The translations under genes were made by a program, and so were the position numbers. From Candidatus Magnetocorallium paracelense (GTDB taxonomy: Bacteria > Nitrospirota > Thermodesulfovibrionia > Thermodesulfovibrionales > Magnetobacteriaceae): a stretch of 64,000 nucleotides of DNA. The notes under the pieces were generated by a model. It made no database searches, was not told the DNA's origin, and saw only the letters and a program-made list of their open reading frames with translations. Numbering within the stretch: the stretch's first letter is position 1; the number at the start of each line of letters is the position of its first letter. Shown piece by piece: positions 10,651 through 41,266 of this stretch. The stretch spans positions 62,001 through 126,000 of the forward strand of contig JAREWP010000061.1 in NCBI GenBank assembly GCA_029001845.1. Direction: 5' to 3'.

Positions 10651-11181
10651 TTAATTGCCGGATATCTTTCTTATTCCGGCACCGACATGACATTTGTTGC
10701 AGAAATTGTCAGGTTCGTAGTGGCAACCAAGACACTCTTCAAGAGAACTTTTCGCAGTGATTATATCGTTGTCATGAGAAAGTCTCCACATATCCAAAGG
10801 CGTATGGTCGTTCGGTTTCTCCATACCCTCCTCTGTTACAAGGCCGAGAACCTGTTTACCATTCTTACCTTCAAATACATTTTGAGCGCCTACATACTTA
10901 TGGCATTTGTTGCAGAAGTTATCCGGCTCATAATGACAGGCAAGGCAGCTCTCTTGCGTAACTTTTCCCGAGCTGATGACGTTCATATGAGAGGCCCTCC
11001 AACTCTCGACAGGAGTGTGGTAGACAGGAGAAATATCTGCATCTCCTGCTATTTTTAACGCCAACTCACCTTCCCCTCCGATGACCGGCTTCTCGACTCT
11101 GCCGCAACCTGTAAGGGCTAATACTGAAACTAAAGTTAAAAGCAGCATAAGTTTTGAAATATGATTCAGCTTTACCATCAT
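10651..11181 (-). CDS. Tetraheme cytochrome c lipoprotein, DsrJ-like
   Basis: A 176-residue protein with a lipoprotein signal (LTLVSVLALTGC), so it should be anchored in a membrane facing the periplasm. It has four CxxCH haem sites in two near-identical modules: CLACH...CNKCH and CLGCH...CNKCH, each with the spacer HYEPDNF. Authentic DsrJ is a triheme protein with one related FC-x-x-CH pair, so this looks like a duplicated DsrJ-type module. It overlaps the dsrK-like stop codon by four bases and closes the dsrM-dsrK-dsrJ unit. The likely role is electron exchange between periplasm and DsrMK. TmcA-type cytochromes are an alternative. Confidence 0.7.
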   Translation of the reverse strand: MMVKLNHISKLMLLLTLVSVLALTGCGRVEKPVIGGEGELALKIAGDADISPVYHTPVESWRASHMNVISSGKVTQESCLACHYEPDNFCNKCHKYVGAQNVFEGKNGKQVLGLVTEEGMEKPNDHTPLDMWRLSHDNDIITAKSSLEECLGCHYEPDNFCNKCHVGAGIRKISGN

Positions 11182-12752
11182 ACCCCCTCCTTTGCACCGA
11201 GAACTATAGCTTTTGCAACAAGCTGATGTACGCCACCGGCCTCTTCCATTGCAAAGCCATAGGTTGGAAGCATTTTGCTTAACTGAGCTTTACAGATAGC
11301 GCATATAAGAGCCAGGAAATTCACTCCGTCACTCTTTTTGACGGCGCTGTATGCCTGCATTCTGGGCATTGCGCCTTTAACCCTTATAGGCATCATATCG
11401 TCGCCAAGAAGACCCTGACCGGCGCCGCAGCAGTACGTTCTCTCTTTTATCGTTTCCTGTGGCATATCGACAAATCTGTTACATACTCCCTTGATAACGC
11501 CTCTGGGAATATCGTATTGTCCTTCCGGGTGACCGCCCATTTCCATACCTCTTGCAACCTGACAGGAGTCATGCATAGTGACAACGACATCGTCATTTGC
11601 ACTCTTGTCGATTTTTAAGGCTCCCCTATTGAGCAGGTCGAGCGTAAACTCGCAAATATGTTGAGGTCTCGGGTATTTGGGATCGAGATGATCGAATGGC
11701 CCGAACATGGTGTTACTGTATGAAGAAAGCACTCTCCACATATGGCCGCACTCTCCGCCAATAACACGCTTAACTTTGAGTTCCTTTGCAGCCTCCCAGA
11801 TACGAGAGTTAATTTTCTTCATATGTTCGTAGTTATGAATAAAGAGACCGAAGTTACCGCCTTCCGATGCCTTGGTGCTCATTGTCCAACTGATGCCTGC
11901 CTGGTAAAATACCTTTGCATATCCGTAAAGAGACTCGATGTGAGGCGAAGCAAAAAAGTCGGCCGAAGGAGTGACAAACAGAACCTCTGCACCCTCTTCG
12001 TCGATCGGTATTCTTATATCTTCTATTTCGAGTTCTTCCTGGAGATCGTCCTGAACGAACTCGAGAGCGTTTACTACGGCGTCGGGGATCATACCGAGAT
12101 TGTTGCCTATCGTCTGAGCTTTGAATACAATCTCGTGGAGATATTTCTGTACTAATCCCACGCTGTTCAATATTTCCCTGGCAGCCATTGTAATCTCGGC
12201 AGTATCTATACCGTAGGGGCAGAAAACGGAGCAGCGTCTGCATTCGGTACACTGATAATAGTAGGTATGCCATAAAGCGAGGACTTCTTCTGTAAGATCG
12301 ACACCGTCAACAAGCTTACTGCCAAACAGTTTGCCCGGCCAGGTAAAGTATCTTCTGTATACCTTTCTCATTAATTCGGCTCTTGCAACGGGCATATTGT
12401 AAGGATCTCCCGTTCCAAGAAAATTATGACACTTATCCGTACATGCCCCGCACCTGACGCAAATGTCCATAAAGAGTCTGACAGATCTGTATTTATTCAA
12501 CATCTCGTCCATCTTTTTCAGAAAGACCTCTTTCCAGTTCGGTATCAGCCCGTCAGCAGGATAGCCGAGATGATTCAATTGATCTTTATCGGCGAGAAGC
12601 TGGACTTTCCAGTCAAAGGAAGCGTTTTTTGAGATACAGGGAGTATTTATTTCCCCTGTCAGCTCGGCGGGTTTTGGTTTGATTTTTTCAAAATGAACGA
12701 GTTTCTGTACTACATCGTTCGGGCTATCGGTGGTTGTTTTTTCATCAGCCAT
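11178..12752 (-). CDS. dsrK: DsrK-like HdrD-type iron-sulfur oxidoreductase
   Basis: A cytoplasmic membrane-associated heterodisulfide-reductase-like subunit of 524 residues. Two [4Fe-4S] motifs are visible: CVRCGACTDKCHNF (about 97-110) and CTECRRCSVFCPYG (about 168-181). The C-terminal half has the catalytic CCG cluster ligands HDSCQVARG, YCCGAGQG and CAICKAQ. In characterised systems DsrK acts on the DsrC trisulfide/disulfide and passes electrons to DsrM. It overlaps the dsrM-like gene by 8 bases, which fits a stoichiometric complex. TmcB or HdrD would look similar; the DsrC gene immediately upstream favours DsrK. Confidence 0.85.
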   Translation of the reverse strand: MADEKTTTDSPNDVVQKLVHFEKIKPKPAELTGEINTPCISKNASFDWKVQLLADKDQLNHLGYPADGLIPNWKEVFLKKMDEMLNKYRSVRLFMDICVRCGACTDKCHNFLGTGDPYNMPVARAELMRKVYRRYFTWPGKLFGSKLVDGVDLTEEVLALWHTYYYQCTECRRCSVFCPYGIDTAEITMAAREILNSVGLVQKYLHEIVFKAQTIGNNLGMIPDAVVNALEFVQDDLQEELEIEDIRIPIDEEGAEVLFVTPSADFFASPHIESLYGYAKVFYQAGISWTMSTKASEGGNFGLFIHNYEHMKKINSRIWEAAKELKVKRVIGGECGHMWRVLSSYSNTMFGPFDHLDPKYPRPQHICEFTLDLLNRGALKIDKSANDDVVVTMHDSCQVARGMEMGGHPEGQYDIPRGVIKGVCNRFVDMPQETIKERTYCCGAGQGLLGDDMMPIRVKGAMPRMQAYSAVKKSDGVNFLALICAICKAQLSKMLPTYGFAMEEAGGVHQLVAKAIVLGAKEGV

Positions 12753-13527
12753 TATTCCCCTCCTCGGTAGCAGTATCCCATGGATTAATATGCCTTACAT
12801 CACGTGGATTGTTAACCATATTTCTGGTCGGGCTAAAGAAATATCCGCCTGCGTGCATCAGCTTACTGAAGGGAAAATAGACAAGCAGTGTTAAAACAAG
12901 GAACAGATGTGTAAGGAAAACCAGGTTCGCCGGAACATGAACGGGATGGAAAATAAGGGCTCCGAACATTCCGTGTAGTGTGAAGAGTTCATAAAAAAAA
13001 GCTTTTACTGCAACGATGTCCGGTCTGAAAGGTTCGAACTTCATCATAATACCGGTTACGGTTATACCGATAATTAACAGAAGCGCGAAGTAGTCGGCCG
13101 GATTTGTCACAAATGCCACTCTTTCGTTTGTAAACCTGCGCAACGTCAGTACAATCAAGGCGATTAACATAAGCACGCCCAAAGGAAGAGCGATGTCGCC
13201 AAGAGAAACAATCCATCCCGGCACCGGATAAACAAAATATCTCAAATGCCTTAGTATTAGTATTAAAAAAGTGAAGTGAAACACCCATCCGGTTATCCAC
13301 AGAACTTTGGTTCCCTTTGACAGGCTTCTGAAAATCAACACATCTCCGGCCATTCTGGCAAATACGCCCGATGCTGTTGTGGCCTGTGGAGTTTGAGGTA
13401 TTTTTAAAGGTTGCGGAGTGTTTTTAAATTCATAAAGTCTGTAAAGAAATCCGGCGACAAAGACAAGAAGGGCGGTATGGGTGAATGCATTGAATAACAT
13501 ATCGACAAATATACCAAGATTCGCCAT
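12745..13527 (-). CDS. dsrM: DsrM-like membrane cytochrome b subunit
   Basis: A 260-residue polytopic membrane protein of the nitrate-reductase gamma/DsrM family, with about six hydrophobic segments. Several candidate haem-ligand His lie in the helices (FTHTALL, FHFTFLILILRHLRY, FTLHGMFGALIFHPVHV). It would exchange electrons between the menaquinone pool and DsrK. It is shorter than DsrM of many sulfate reducers (roughly 300 or more residues) and so resembles the compact NarI-like form. Its stop overlaps dsrK and it is preceded by a terminator hairpin after dsrC. DsrO and DsrP are absent from the locus. Confidence 0.8.
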   Translation of the reverse strand: MANLGIFVDMLFNAFTHTALLVFVAGFLYRLYEFKNTPQPLKIPQTPQATTASGVFARMAGDVLIFRSLSKGTKVLWITGWVFHFTFLILILRHLRYFVYPVPGWIVSLGDIALPLGVLMLIALIVLTLRRFTNERVAFVTNPADYFALLLIIGITVTGIMMKFEPFRPDIVAVKAFFYELFTLHGMFGALIFHPVHVPANLVFLTHLFLVLTLLVYFPFSKLMHAGGYFFSPTRNMVNNPRDVRHINPWDTATEEGNNG

Positions 13528-13567
13528 CTTATAATCCCCTTTACTATCATAATGTGGTTTTAAAAAA

Positions 13568-13604
13568 GATGTAGGGTCTGACAGAATCTATCAGACCCTA
13601 CATG
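13568..13604 (-). terminator. Hairpin terminator between dsrC and dsrM
   Basis: A perfect 12-bp stem, TGTAGGGTCTGA (13570-13581) with TCAGACCCTACA (13591-13602), reads into TCTTTTTTA on the minus strand. This suits partial termination after dsrC, giving more dsrC than dsrMKJ transcript (inference). Confidence 0.8.
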
Positions 13605-13628
13605 GAAAAAACATAAAATTAATTCATA

Positions 13629-13964
13629 TTATACGCAACCGGTCGGTTTTGGAAGGCCGGCATATCGACATGCCTGTTTTGCAGGGCCATCGGGGAAAAG
13701 CTGGTAGAGATATTTGGTGTTACCCTTGTCTGCGCCCATTTTCTTTTTAATTTCCTTAACAAGAATTTTAATCATCGGAGCAATCTGATACTGCTGATAG
13801 TAATCTCTCAAAAATCTGATTACCTCCCAGTGCGAGTCCTCAAGATTTAATCCGTCCTGTTCGGCGAGAGTACTTGCGACACCTTCTGACCAGTCGTCAA
13901 GATTTGTAAGATAACCGTCCTCGTCAAGATCAACCTGCTTACCGTCAAATTCTAATGTTGGCAT
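13629..13964 (-). CDS. dsrC: DsrC/TusE-family sulfur carrier protein
   Basis: A 111-residue protein with the complete DsrC fold signature: an acidic N-terminus (DLDEDGYLTNLDDWSEGVA), the HWEVIRFLRDYY helix and a C-terminal arm CRYAGLPKPTGCV. Both redox cysteines are present (Cys99 and penultimate Cys110, spaced C-x10-C), which separates DsrC from TusE, where only the last is kept. In known systems it carries sulfite-derived sulfur as a trisulfide that DsrMK turns over. A strong AAGGAGGT ribosome site precedes the ATG. A perfect 9-bp inverted repeat, AAGTTTCTT-A-AAGAAACTT, lies at 14028-14046 upstream and could be an operator or the end of the upstream transcript. Confidence 0.93.
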   Translation of the reverse strand: MPTLEFDGKQVDLDEDGYLTNLDDWSEGVASTLAEQDGLNLEDSHWEVIRFLRDYYQQYQIAPMIKILVKEIKKKMGADKGNTKYLYQLFPDGPAKQACRYAGLPKPTGCV

Positions 13965-15764: not shown

Positions 15765-17192
15765 TTACTTTTTTTTCAATTCATTCAGTATATCAGGGAG
15801 GTATTTGAAGAGATAATCGAGGTCCTCTTTTGTGGTCTTTAATCCTGTGCTGAAGCGAATGATCCCGTATCGGTCGGTATCGACACCTAAGGCTCTTATA
15901 ACATGCGACGCCTCTCTGCTCCCTGCGCTGCATGCGGACCCGGCGGATACATAAACGCCTATGTGATTCAAGCTTAATAGCAGCGATCCGCTGTCAACGC
16001 CGGGGAAGCCTATGTTTAAATTATTGGGCAGTCGTTTGCTGCTGGAGCCGTTCACTATACATTCAGGTTCGATCTTTCTTAAATTATCCATGAAGTAGCC
16101 CCTTAATTCTAAAAGACGTTCGTTTTCTTTGTCCATCTCTCTATTGATTAAAACAGCGGCCTCTCCGAATGCGACTATCGAACCCACATTTTCAGTGCCG
16201 GCTCGATATCCGAATTCCTGTTCGCCTCCGTGCAATAGGGGAACAACAGGAAGATTCTCATTAATATACAGGCATGCCACCCCCTTGGGCGCGTATATTT
16301 TATGTCCTGAAACGGAAAGCAGGGATATGCCCATCTCTTTGGGATGAAACCTCATCTTTCCGAATGCCTGAACGGCATCCACCATGAACGGTACATTGCG
16401 GGCTTTGCATATTTCACCGATCCTGCAGATGGGATTTATGGTTCCAATTTCATTGTTGGCCGCTATTATAGTAACAAGTATCGTGTCGTCGCGGATATTG
16501 TCCGCTACCTGCTTGGGAGACACAACACCTTCGACTCCGGCGTCCAAATAAGTAACTTCAAATCCCTTTTCTTCTAGGTAGCGTAAAGTGCGCATTACTG
16601 AAAGATGTTCTATGTTGGTAGATAGTATATGCCCACATTGATCGCTTCTATTTAAAGCGATACCCTTTATGGCCATATTATTGGCCTCGGAACCGCTTCC
16701 GGTAAAAATTATCTCCTTGGATTTCACACCAAAAATATCGGCTATTTTAACTCTGGCCTCGTGGACACGGTCGTATGCCTTCTTTCCAAGGATTGTGCTG
16801 CTGCTGGGATTACCGAAGCTTGAACTATCTCCGTAAAAATCCTGTAGAATACCGATCACCTCTTGCCTTAAATAAGTAGTGGCGTTATGATCGAGATAGA
16901 CATCTCTGAAGTCGTCAATAGTAAGGGCGGCCATCTTTTTACAACCATGACCTGCTGTATGTATCGGAATGCCTACCCACGTGTAAACGGAGTTCAAACC
17001 GTAGGGAAACATGCTTTCAAGGTTCTCCTTATTTACACCTGTGTGTTTAAGCAGATTTCTGTAAAGAGGCCCCACTTTATGCTTTTCATAATATGAATAT
17101 ACGTACTCAAGAACTTCGATATGCTTCATTGTGAGGACAACATTGGTCAGTCTCGACATAGTGTTTATCTGAGTTCTTACAAGATTATTCAT
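15765..17192 (-). CDS. TusE/DsrC-like domain fused to cysteine desulfurase
   Basis: A two-domain protein of 475 residues. Residues about 20-84 match the C-terminal half of DsrC/TusE: HIEVLEYVYSYYEKHKVGPL aligns with HWEVIRFLRDYYQQYQIAPM of the dsrC product at 13629, MFPYGLNSVYTWVGIP aligns with LFPDGPAKQACRYAGLP, and Cys84 (TAGHGCKK) sits where the terminal DsrC Cys lies. The other DsrC Cys is Tyr, as expected for a TusE-like single-Cys relay. From Tyr99 it is a NifS/IscS PLP enzyme: YLDHNATT, SGHKIYAPKG (PLP Lys), and SGSAC-type catalytic Cys421. Its start is 11 bases after the stop of the DUF169 gene. It probably passes cysteine sulfur directly to the fused carrier. Confidence 0.88.
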   Translation of the reverse strand: MNNLVRTQINTMSRLTNVVLTMKHIEVLEYVYSYYEKHKVGPLYRNLLKHTGVNKENLESMFPYGLNSVYTWVGIPIHTAGHGCKKMAALTIDDFRDVYLDHNATTYLRQEVIGILQDFYGDSSSFGNPSSSTILGKKAYDRVHEARVKIADIFGVKSKEIIFTGSGSEANNMAIKGIALNRSDQCGHILSTNIEHLSVMRTLRYLEEKGFEVTYLDAGVEGVVSPKQVADNIRDDTILVTIIAANNEIGTINPICRIGEICKARNVPFMVDAVQAFGKMRFHPKEMGISLLSVSGHKIYAPKGVACLYINENLPVVPLLHGGEQEFGYRAGTENVGSIVAFGEAAVLINREMDKENERLLELRGYFMDNLRKIEPECIVNGSSSKRLPNNLNIGFPGVDSGSLLLSLNHIGVYVSAGSACSAGSREASHVIRALGVDTDRYGIIRFSTGLKTTKEDLDYLFKYLPDILNELKKK

Positions 17193-17203
17193 TTGAATTT
17201 TCT

Positions 17204-18067
17204 CTATGTCCCGGGATAGAGATGGAATGGAAATCCTGTGGCTGACTCTTCCATGCCCTTTGCAATGATCTCGAAATCTTTAAAGGGGACTCCGATTCCC
17301 AGTTTATCGGCCTCATACTGAGCTATCAATCTGGCGCCCAGGCAATAGGTGGAAATATTTATCTCTCCTGTAAGATAGGGGCGCACAATAAGGTCGGAAT
17401 TCACCACTCTGAGCCCCCCCATACTGGCGGTGACTCTCTTGCCTGTATTATATTGATATGCCTGAATGATCCTGGTCAGTTCAACCGGTCTGACAGTCAT
17501 TACTACGACATCGGGAATTAAATCCATACTGTCAAAGTCCGTGGAATAAAAAAAAACGCCTTTTGTCGTCGGTGGCTGAATAGCAATCATATCCGCTATC
17601 GCTTTTCTTGCAGTTTCGGCGTCCCTATACCTGCCGCTATCGTCCTTTCCAAAGAGACAAAAATCATATCGTTTTTCAGATGCACAGGCATAAACCGTCC
17701 CGTTTGTAAATTCCTCAGGAGAAGGAGGAACGAAACGGTCGTCGTTATGGGACCGGTTTTTCATCAAATCGGTATACACTCTTGAACCGGCAAGGGGTTT
17801 GTCCCGGTGCATATCGACAAGGCCGAAAGTTATGGCAGCGGCTACACATCCTATATTTTCCGATGTGAGCAAAACGGCATCTCCCAGAGATGCCTGTTTT
17901 TTTGCCTGGCAACTTGTAAGAGTGATTTCCGATGGGTGGTGATAATAAACCTCTTCCGGTATTTGTTCTTTATGGGAATAAAACTTAATTGCCGCCGTAG
18001 GAATCGTAAGGCCCTCAACAGCCATAGCCCATATGATTCGTTGGTATAATGCCTTAATTGTTGTCAT
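17204..18067 (-). CDS. DUF169 family protein
   Basis: A 287-residue soluble protein of the DUF169 family (function unknown). Recognisable family segments include AIKFY, TSCQAKKQA (Cys at about 53), ENIGCVAAAITFGL (Cys about 73), DLIPDVVVMTVRPVELTRIIQAY and ASMGGLRVVNSD. The conserved Cys residues in small-residue settings hint at metal or cofactor binding, but this is inference. It is co-transcribed with the TusE-like/desulfurase fusion 11 bases downstream, so a role in sulfur or Fe-S handling is plausible. The upstream leader contains the TTGAGGAATT repeats. Confidence 0.8.
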   Translation of the reverse strand: MTTIKALYQRIIWAMAVEGLTIPTAAIKFYSHKEQIPEEVYYHHPSEITLTSCQAKKQASLGDAVLLTSENIGCVAAAITFGLVDMHRDKPLAGSRVYTDLMKNRSHNDDRFVPPSPEEFTNGTVYACASEKRYDFCLFGKDDSGRYRDAETARKAIADMIAIQPPTTKGVFFYSTDFDSMDLIPDVVVMTVRPVELTRIIQAYQYNTGKRVTASMGGLRVVNSDLIVRPYLTGEINISTYCLGARLIAQYEADKLGIGVPFKDFEIIAKGMEESATGFPFHLYPGT

Positions 18068-38932: not shown

Positions 38933-38949
38933 TATTAGTATTGATAAGA

Positions 38950-39417
38950 ATGTTAAGGTTATCGACCAAATGTCAATATGGTGTGAGGGCTATGTATGAA
39001 ATTGCAAAGGGATATCCATACAACAAGACATCCATAAAGTCGATATCCGAGAAACAGGATGTATCGGCGCCTTTTTTGGAGCAGATACTGTCGAGACTGA
39101 GAAAGGCAGGTATCATTAATAGTGTAAAAGGCCCCGGAGGCGGATACATGTTGAGCAGGACTCCCGAAGAAATCACCATCGCTTCGATTGTCAATGAGCT
39201 GGAAGGGCCGCTAGCCATTACATCATGCCTGAATCCCGAAGAAGGATGCGTGAGAGTGGATTCCTGTGTTATTCACCTGTTATGGAAATCCCTGGGAAAC
39301 CAGATCGAAGCTTTCCTCAATACAATAACACTGGGAGATCTTATAAACGGAAACCCCATTGACGAATACTTTCCCATGGGAAATACAGGAGCAAATCACG
39401 AGGTAGCAGACGCGTGA
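38950..39417 (+). CDS. Rrf2-family (IscR-like) Fe-S regulator
   Basis: A regulator of about 155 residues. The ATG at 38950 is preferred over the TTG at 38941 because it starts the usual MLRLSTKCQYGVRAM. It has the winged-helix reader KTSIKSISEKQDVSAPFLEQILSRLRKAGI and wing KGPGGGYMLSR. Three cysteines, SCLNPEEGCVRVDSC, are suitable [2Fe-2S] ligands with spacing C-x6-C-x5-C, one residue longer than E. coli IscR. It heads the tusA-nifS-iscU operon and probably represses it according to Fe-S status. Confidence 0.88.
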   Translation: MLRLSTKCQYGVRAMYEIAKGYPYNKTSIKSISEKQDVSAPFLEQILSRLRKAGIINSVKGPGGGYMLSRTPEEITIASIVNELEGPLAITSCLNPEEGCVRVDSCVIHLLWKSLGNQIEAFLNTITLGDLINGNPIDEYFPMGNTGANHEVADA

Positions 39418-39668
39418 GTCTAAAGTTCGTAGAAAACGTGAAGCCTGATGTAACAACCGACATTGTTTATATGATGTGTCCCATGCATCTCCTTAAACTT
39501 GAGGAAATGATAAAGGAGCTTGAAATCGAACAGATTTTAGAGATAATGACGGATTATGACGGCGCGCTTGAAGACATACCCGGATGGTGTGAGAAAACGG
39601 GTAATGAGTTCCTTGGTATAGAGGAAACGGAAGAATTCTATAAGTTTTATATAAAAAAGAAAGTTTGA
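39414..39668 (+). CDS. TusA/SirA-like sulfur carrier
   Basis: A short protein of 84 residues with the TusA fold. The carrier Cys22 is in MMCPMHLLKLEEMIKEL, where the usual CPxP is CPMH, then the DYDGALEDIPGWCEKTGNEFLGIEE segment that corresponds to the TusA C-terminal half. It would accept persulfide sulfur from the desulfurase encoded next. It starts with GTG overlapping the regulator stop by four bases. Assignment to the TusA superfamily is fairly sure; the delivery target is not. Confidence 0.78.
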   Translation: MSLKFVENVKPDVTTDIVYMMCPMHLLKLEEMIKELEIEQILEIMTDYDGALEDIPGWCEKTGNEFLGIEETEEFYKFYIKKKV

Positions 39669-39720
39669 TCCAAAAATCGTCAATCAAAACAGACTCTTAT
39701 AAACCTGCTGTGAGGTGATT

Positions 39721-40899
39721 ATGAAACAGAGATATTTCGACCATATTGCAACCAATCCTCTCCATCCAAAAGTGCTTGACTCGATGATGCCTTATTTTAA
39801 AGAGGAGTTTGGAAATCCCCTCAGTGTATATGACCTTGGGGCCAACGCAAAGACAGCAATAGAAGAGGCGAGGGGAAAGGTGGCAAAATTAATAAATGCC
39901 AAACCTTCGGAAATAGTATTTACCGCCAGCGGCGCAGAGGCCAATAATTTTGCTTTAAAAGGCATTGCTTTGGCAAAGCAAAACGAGGGAAACCATATCC
40001 TTATATCTAAAGTCGAACATCATTCCGTGCTTAATCCGGCAAGGGCTCTGGAAAAACAAGGATTTGTAGTAACATACATGCCTGTTGACAACTACGGTGT
40101 CGTTGATCCCGATACAGTAAAAAAAATGATAACCGATAAGACCATACTTATATCTGTTACTACTGCCAGCAGTGAAATAGGTACAATAGAACCTGTAAAG
40201 GAGATTGCAGCCATAGCAAACGAGAAAAACATTCCCTTTCACACGGATGCAGTAGCTGCTGTGGGAAATATCCCCATCGATGTAAAGGCTCTCGGCGTTA
40301 ATCTTATGAGCATGTCGGCTCATCAGTTTTATGGACCCAAAGGGGCGTCAGCTCTCTATTTAAAACAAGGCCAGCGTATAAACCCACTGATATACGGAGG
40401 CATACAGGAAGGCGGCAGAAGAGCAGGAACTGAAAATGTACCGGCCATCGTCGGCATGGGAACTGCCGCCGAAATGGCCGGAAACGAGCTTATGGAGAGA
40501 TATAACCATGTAAAAAGGCTCAAAGACAGGCTGATTAAGGAGTGCCTTAAAATAGATAATGTTCATCTTACCGGACATCCGGACAACAGACTTCCCGGAC
40601 ACGCCAGTTTTGTAGTGGAATTTATAGAAGGTGAGGGAATGCTTTTGATGCTCCAGGCAAAGGGGATGTATGCTGCCAGCGGCTCAGCCTGTACCTCAAA
40701 GGCATTAAAAGCGTCTCCGGTTTTAACGGCTACGGGAATCTCAACAAGTATGTCTCACGGATCGATGGTATTTAGTCTGGGAATGGACAACAGGGACGAA
40801 GATATGGATGTTCTTCTTGAAGAATTTCCTCAGATTGTAAACAGATTAAGAGAGATATCCCCATTTTCCAAAGGATGGGATGCAAAGGAGGGTGATTAA
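39721..40899 (+). CDS. Cysteine desulfurase (NifS/IscS group)
   Basis: A PLP enzyme of 392 residues that converts cysteine to alanine and an enzyme persulfide. The ATG at 39721 follows GAGGTG. Motifs: FTASGAEANNFALKG, HHSVLNPARALEKQG, SAHQFYGPKGASALYL (PLP Lys) and the catalytic Cys in YAASGSACTSKALKASPVL. The N-terminus has YFDHIATNPLHP in place of the usual YLDNNATT. Flanked by TusA-like and IscU genes, it should feed Fe-S assembly. Confidence 0.93.
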   Translation: MKQRYFDHIATNPLHPKVLDSMMPYFKEEFGNPLSVYDLGANAKTAIEEARGKVAKLINAKPSEIVFTASGAEANNFALKGIALAKQNEGNHILISKVEHHSVLNPARALEKQGFVVTYMPVDNYGVVDPDTVKKMITDKTILISVTTASSEIGTIEPVKEIAAIANEKNIPFHTDAVAAVGNIPIDVKALGVNLMSMSAHQFYGPKGASALYLKQGQRINPLIYGGIQEGGRRAGTENVPAIVGMGTAAEMAGNELMERYNHVKRLKDRLIKECLKIDNVHLTGHPDNRLPGHASFVVEFIEGEGMLLMLQAKGMYAASGSACTSKALKASPVLTATGISTSMSHGSMVFSLGMDNRDEDMDVLLEEFPQIVNRLREISPFSKGWDAKEGD

Positions 40900-40900
40900 T

Positions 40901-41266
40901 ATGTATAGCAAAAAATTAATGGATCACTTTACAAATCCCAGGAACGTAGGAGAAATAGAAGATGCTGACGGTGTTGGCATGGAAGGTAATCCAACTTGTG
41001 GAGACGCCATGAAGCTCTTTATAAAAGTAAAGGACGACAAGATAGCAGAGGCAAAATTTCAAACTTTTGGCTGTGGGGCGGCAATTGCTGTCAGCAGTAT
41101 GATAACCGAGATGGCGAAGGATAAGACCCTTGACGAGGCAATGGCCATTACTAAAGAATCCGTTGCAGAAGCTCTTGACGGTCTCCCTCCTCAGAAAATG
41201 CATTGCTCGAATTTGGGAGCGGACGCACTTCGCAAAGCGATTGAAGACTATAGAAGTAAAAATTAA
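40901..41266 (+). CDS. iscU: Fe-S cluster scaffold IscU/NifU-N
   Basis: A 121-residue scaffold on which [2Fe-2S]/[4Fe-4S] clusters form. The ATG at 40901 follows GGAGGG. The three ligand cysteines are present in GNPTCGDAM, TFGCGAAIAVSS and KMHCSNLGADAL, with the conserved Asp after the first Cys. The MYSKKLMDHFTNPRNVGEI start is typical. No HscAB or ferredoxin follows, so the operon is minimal. Confidence 0.94.
   Translation: MYSKKLMDHFTNPRNVGEIEDADGVGMEGNPTCGDAMKLFIKVKDDKIAEAKFQTFGCGAAIAVSSMITEMAKDKTLDEAMAITKESVAEALDGLPPQKMHCSNLGADALRKAIEDYRSKN

Follow-up and report, generated by a model that had tools for sequence, protein, structure and literature searches.

The question raised by this locus is whether a sulfur carrier of the DsrC/TusE family and the enzyme that would load it can be parts of one polypeptide, and what such a protein would be for. 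In the 64,000-nucleotide stretch of DNA analyzed here (the window), an uninterrupted minus-strand reading frame from ATG to TAA encodes the candidate protein. The relevant features are the following.

15765–17192, minus strand: DsrC/TusE-like domain joined to a cysteine desulfurase in a single open reading frame of 475 amino acids, conserved in 12 further loci.
16962–17192, minus strand: residues 1–77, a truncated DsrC/TusE domain of five helices in which Tyr70 replaces the other DsrC cysteine.
16905–16961, minus strand: residues 78–96, a flexible arm or linker with the invariant Cys84 (codon 16941–16943).
15765–16904, minus strand: residues 97–475, a NifS/IscS-type cysteine desulfurase by sequence, with the PLP lysine Lys298 (codon 16299–16301) and the catalytic Cys421 (codon 15930–15932).
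17204–18067, minus strand: DUF169 gene (PF02596, COG2043) directly upstream of the fusion gene across an 11-bp gap, present at 13 of 13 fusion loci.

The N-terminal domain has the DsrC fold and a sequence similarity to DsrC that is far beyond chance. The DsrC profile PF04358 matches the whole protein at 30.8 bits and residues 1–96 at 33.3 bits (E 6.9e-8), which passes the gathering cut-off of 24.9 bits, and the other fusion members score 25.0–42.8 bits. TIGR03342, the model of full-length DsrC/TusE, remains below its cut-off (30.4 vs 53.5 bits) and is matched over profile positions 27–75 of 108 only. The fusion protein matches Allochromatium vinosum DsrC (1yx3) at E 2.2e-5 (phmmer), and a profile–profile comparison (hhalign) of the fusion family with 13 DsrC/TusE proteins returned a probability of 99.1% (E 9e-19). 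In an AlphaFold model of residues 1–96 alone (mean pLDDT 82, five helices), the eight best PDB matches are solved DsrC structures (Z 7.3–10.4), the topmost at 2.4–2.5 Å over 82 residues, and the next match is a TetR helix–turn–helix domain at Z 5.3; in the structure search with the full-length model, the matches were filled by desulfurases and carry no information on the N-terminal domain. The profile–profile result and the DsrC structural matches rule out a chance match, and a comparison of the N-terminal part with DsrC/TusE, as the initial annotation had suggested, gives the DsrC fold and not another.

The fused domain is shorter than DsrC. The match begins at profile position 25–26, so the N-terminal quarter of DsrC is absent from the fusion, and sequence alignments stop after GIPI (residue 77); the alignment with the C-terminal half of DsrC, originally drawn for residues 20–84, is right in its match but ends at residue 77. 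Cys84 lies 7 residues past the proline of GIP, a distance of 4 in nearly all DsrC/TusE-like proteins compared, and had been placed at the terminal DsrC cysteine: the position is near and the residue invariant, but it sits three residues beyond the exact register. Cys84 is retained in 13 of 13 fusion members and the arm is variable immediately ahead of it, and residues 78–84 have a pLDDT below 50 in the full-length model. The place of the second redox cysteine of the DsrC arm is occupied by Tyr70, a tyrosine in all 13 members. This replacement had been likened to TusE; the tyrosine is indeed there, but family proteins from organisms without DsrAB almost always carry Ala, Ser or Thr at this place (PMC3397948). 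A tyrosine is found at the same position in single-cysteine DsrC paralogs (L008, L012, L013) of other genomes in the window's phylum, which differ from the fused domain in being stand-alone proteins of about 105 amino acids with a full N-terminus. The invariant core of the domain among 11 aligned members comprises V40 G41 P42, F62 P63, Y70 and W72–P76, together with Lys85. The domain thus shares with the DsrC/TusE family (PF04358, TIGR03342) its fold, the motifs YYxxxxxxP and FPxG...G(I/L)P and a cysteine on a flexible arm past the fold, and differs in its truncation, in its single, shifted cysteine and in running on into a 379-residue enzyme instead of ending at the cysteine.

Judged by sequence, residues 97–475 are a complete NifS/IscS-type cysteine desulfurase. 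Aminotran_5 matches residues 98–461 over profile positions 1–371, the whole class V aminotransferase profile, at E 8.6e-69. Among the NCBIfam models NifS scores best (410 bits of a 531-bit cut-off), ahead of IscS (338 of 643) and DndA (331 of 480), yet all remain below their equivalog cut-offs; the domain is related to NifS, IscS and DndA and is none of these equivalogs. The best structural matches of the full-length model are human NFS1 and E. coli IscS (Z 48–50, 34–40% identity). Lys298 and Cys421, both pointed out initially, are present and invariant in 11 aligned members, as are His196, Asn247, Asp272 and Gln275, and Cys421 lies on a loop (419–425) with a pLDDT below 50 in the full-length model. 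With the PF04358 score, the profile–profile comparison and the Aminotran_5 match, the central claim of the initial annotation, a DsrC/TusE-family domain fused to a complete cysteine desulfurase, is well founded. An internal start that would yield a free desulfurase was considered and rejected: past Cys84, the only methionine ahead of the desulfurase domain is Met87, which the aligned members do not conserve. What sets the domain apart from other NifS/IscS desulfurases is that the fused form makes a clade of its own, and its identity to the further desulfurases encoded alongside it in the genome is only about 40%. A row of IscR-like, IscS-type and IscU-like genes, judged by eye, lies at 38941–41266 of the window; the housekeeping Fe–S role is probably covered elsewhere in the genome by this row, and the fusion protein is therefore likely to be a dedicated enzyme.

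A scan of 84,980 species genomes returned ten fusion loci, L019 among them, and a wider look in the phylum of genome G402 added two more, both of which retain the tyrosine and the cysteine. The fusion is thus found in 13 genomes, at the window locus and at 12 further independent loci, which rules out a sequencing or assembly artifact at the junction. The assemblies are labeled Thermodesulfobacteriota, Nitrospirota, Nitrospinota, Chloroflexota and Gemmatimonadota, five phyla in all, and as they are mostly MAGs, a label may be mistaken in individual cases. Over the ten full-length relatives that were aligned, identity to the window protein is 52–60%. In trees, the desulfurase domains and the N-terminal domains each form one clade (100/100 in both cases), and the single-cysteine DsrC paralogs mentioned above branch as sister to the fused domain (93/81); a single fusion event would be the simplest reading of these trees, in which the outgroup sample is small. 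Separate genes in close relatives had been named as a sign against the fusion, and in 791 genomes, 395 from the phylum of Desulforapulum and 396 from that of the window, each desulfurase match as close as E 1e-105 is itself a fusion. The architecture is rare, with three occurrences among the 395 genomes and one among the 396, plus one same-family relative, and the viral contigs, phages and plasmids searched contained no fusion.

The most constant neighbor, overlooked in the initial annotation, is the DUF169 gene, which precedes the fusion gene on the same strand at every locus. PF02596 matches it at E 3.9e-35 in the window and at E 1.8e-30 in L022, the other loci being read from gene neighborhoods, and in L015 the two reading frames overlap. 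An alignment of the window's DUF169 protein with eight relatives, 59–65% identical to it, shows Cys53, Cys74 and Cys242 to be invariant in all nine; by eye, cysteines at similar places occur in other DUF169 subfamilies too. A sequence search of the PDB with the DUF169 protein gave no match and no solved relative, and the literature on DUF169/COG2043 holds lists and operon mentions only, with no known biochemistry. In relatives without the fusion, the flanks of DUF169 genes contain no desulfurase or fused-domain homologue. In one such relative a DUF169 gene is followed by a YedF/TusA-like gene with a CPKP motif (L087:542-1894); by eye, this pair looks like another link of DUF169 to a sulfur or selenium relay.

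It is fairly probable that the fusion protein is a self-loading sulfur relay, in which a persulfide on Cys421 is passed to Cys84 and from there to a client, most likely DUF169. The reading is based on the architecture and its conservation, on the invariant cysteines and catalytic residues and on the two-gene unit; the Cys421-to-Cys84 transfer, the carrier role and DUF169 as recipient are what we infer from them. The desulfurase domain would strip sulfur from L-cysteine with PLP and hold it as a persulfide on Cys421 of the mobile loop, which would hand it to Cys84 on the flexible arm, either within one chain or across to the other subunit of the dimer. Next, the DsrC/TusE domain would dock on the client and deliver the sulfur, and this client would most likely be the DUF169 protein encoded upstream or one presented with its help.

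Several observations count for this relay. The fused N-terminal domain is DsrC in sequence and fold, Cys84 is invariant amid a varying arm, and both cysteines are on segments that AlphaFold leaves flexible. By alignment, the six invariant desulfurase residues are those needed in IscS/NifS, and their retention supports the reading. A single origin, no close unfused desulfurase and a DUF169 gene at all loci point in the same direction, as does a second, unfused pairing in genome G706 (L093:8862-10396). There a stand-alone DsrC-family gene (118 amino acids, Arg at the second-cysteine position) is followed directly by a desulfurase gene of the TIGR01977 (EF2568) type, and on its other side lies a gene resembling molybdenum hydroxylases (MoCoBD, Fer2_2). 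There is precedent for the chemistry: in donor tests with IscS and cysteine, or with sulfide, A. vinosum DsrC was persulfurated on its terminal cysteine, Cys111 (PMC3397948), which makes a first transfer without Tus intermediates chemically reasonable. The E. coli IscS–TusA–TusBCD–TusE pathway likewise draws its sulfur from a cysteine desulfurase and ends in a TusE-type carrier, but with separate proteins, two intermediates and MnmA as end target. Closest in architecture is the cysteine desulfurase–rhodanese fusion CD-Rhd of Pseudorhodoferax, likewise a desulfurase and a sulfur-acceptor domain in one bifunctional polypeptide, in which the acceptor cysteine of the fused carrier makes the desulfurase more active, about ten times so when GSH or beta-mercaptoethanol is present (PMC8931425); its carrier is a rhodanese and not DsrC/TusE, and no DUF169 partner is described for it. 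Desulfurase–carrier fusions are thus already known, and of the DsrC/TusE–desulfurase architecture no description was found in the open-access full texts searched. Weighing against the relay are the displacement of Cys84 from the exact DsrC position, the occurrence of other DUF169 subfamilies in relatives whose flanks lack the desulfurase and the fused domain, and the helix–turn–helix-like core that the DsrC fold contains (TetR matches, Z about 5), which may leave room for a nucleic-acid role.

Given the off-register cysteine and the longer arm, the DsrC-fold domain might be expected to act as a module that recognizes or docks on DsrC-binding partners, such as DsrAB, DsrMK or MnmA, or on DUF169, with sulfur passing from Cys421 directly to the client and Cys84 retained for a disulfide, a metal or a structural reason. 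The natural partners of DsrC are usually present, as dsrA scores above its cut-off in 9 of the 11 fusion genomes tested (fusion genomes only), and dsrC with dsrM/K/J-like genes lies 3–6 kb from the fusion in the window (10651–13964), where the match of the DsrJ-like protein (40.8 bits) stays below its cut-off of 100. Such a module is nonetheless unlikely: an invariant cysteine on a flexible arm amid varying neighbors suits a chemical role better, and two fusion genomes, both MAGs, stand apart: G403 has neither a dsrA above cut-off nor another DsrC-family gene, and G410 has no dsrA match and only a DsrC paralog without the second cysteine. These two genomes also suggest that dissimilatory sulfur metabolism, usual in fusion genomes, may not necessarily be required. 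From the TetR-like core and from the distant DndA match of the desulfurase one could read a nucleic-acid-binding module by which the enzyme would be steered to a DNA or tRNA target, for instance in thiolation; it is very improbable, since DsrC structures take the top eight places among the structural matches and the helix–turn–helix proteins follow at a clear distance, and no Dnd or tRNA-thiolation gene appears in the ORF lists of those flanks that were inspected.

Another set of neighbors bears on a different role. Four of the 13 loci, which carry the labels of four phyla, have a gene for a cytosolic NMT1_2/SsuA-like binding protein close to the operon, alone in L022 and L023 and as a REC-SBP-CheW protein in L015 and L019. 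Of the 13 fusion genomes, 12 contain the subfamily (above 380 bits), but only 1 of the 12 control genomes does (Fisher p 3e-5); the controls are few and hand-picked, and lineage could account for part of the association. The fusion might on these grounds belong to a cytoplasmic sulfur- or cysteine-sensing chain with REC-NMT1_2(-CheW), in which the persulfide is a signal and not a biosynthetic intermediate. This is quite improbable: where NMT1_2 genes stand apart from the fusion, the flanks inspected show response regulators and other chemotaxis-like genes and no fusion, and no persulfide chemistry is known for NMT1_2 proteins. A double cysteine (HPCC) of the NMT1-like protein was considered as a special acceptor and set aside, because weaker-matching proteins of the family at large have this motif too. 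Only tentatively, and with the odds against it, can DUF169, the fusion and a cytosolic NMT1-type protein, often with REC and CheW, be seen as a mobile module that would form a dedicated sulfur-transfer or persulfide-signaling system, mostly in dissimilatory-sulfur bacteria; the DUF169 protein would then be the first of its large family to which the role of sulfur acceptor is assigned.

Other unusual proteins were encountered in these genomes. In the REC-NMT1_2-CheW proteins (L015:5205-7115, L019:10560-12479 and, in the window's own genome, L127:8724-10649, the domains of the last assigned by similarity), a cytoplasmic substrate-binding-protein domain is inserted between receiver and CheW, as in an extended CheV. 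The window's genome also encodes a second, divergent two-cysteine DsrC paralog with an insertion before the arm (L026:1498-1851), and its dsrA match (G000:C39:269611-270768) contains a single in-frame TAA, which may reflect a frameshift or just mark where the match ends. Tandem DsrC–DsrC proteins of 253–268 amino acids in which the usual terminal cysteines are partly lost occur in genome G406 (L039:1039-1845, L047:1483-2244), and a cysteine synthase-like PALP protein fused to a rhodanese (L095:1572-2906) is encoded about 1.3 kb upstream of the DUF169–fusion operon in G771.

Through the fusion, cysteine desulfuration is physically tied to a family of carriers at the heart of dissimilatory sulfur metabolism, and most of the organisms concerned bear dsrA. 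If the self-loading relay is true, it would be the shortest among sulfur relays of the DsrC/TusE kind, with source and end carrier in one chain and neither TusA nor TusBCD between them. For the widespread DUF169 family, which has no known function, it also provides a first hypothesis that can be tested.
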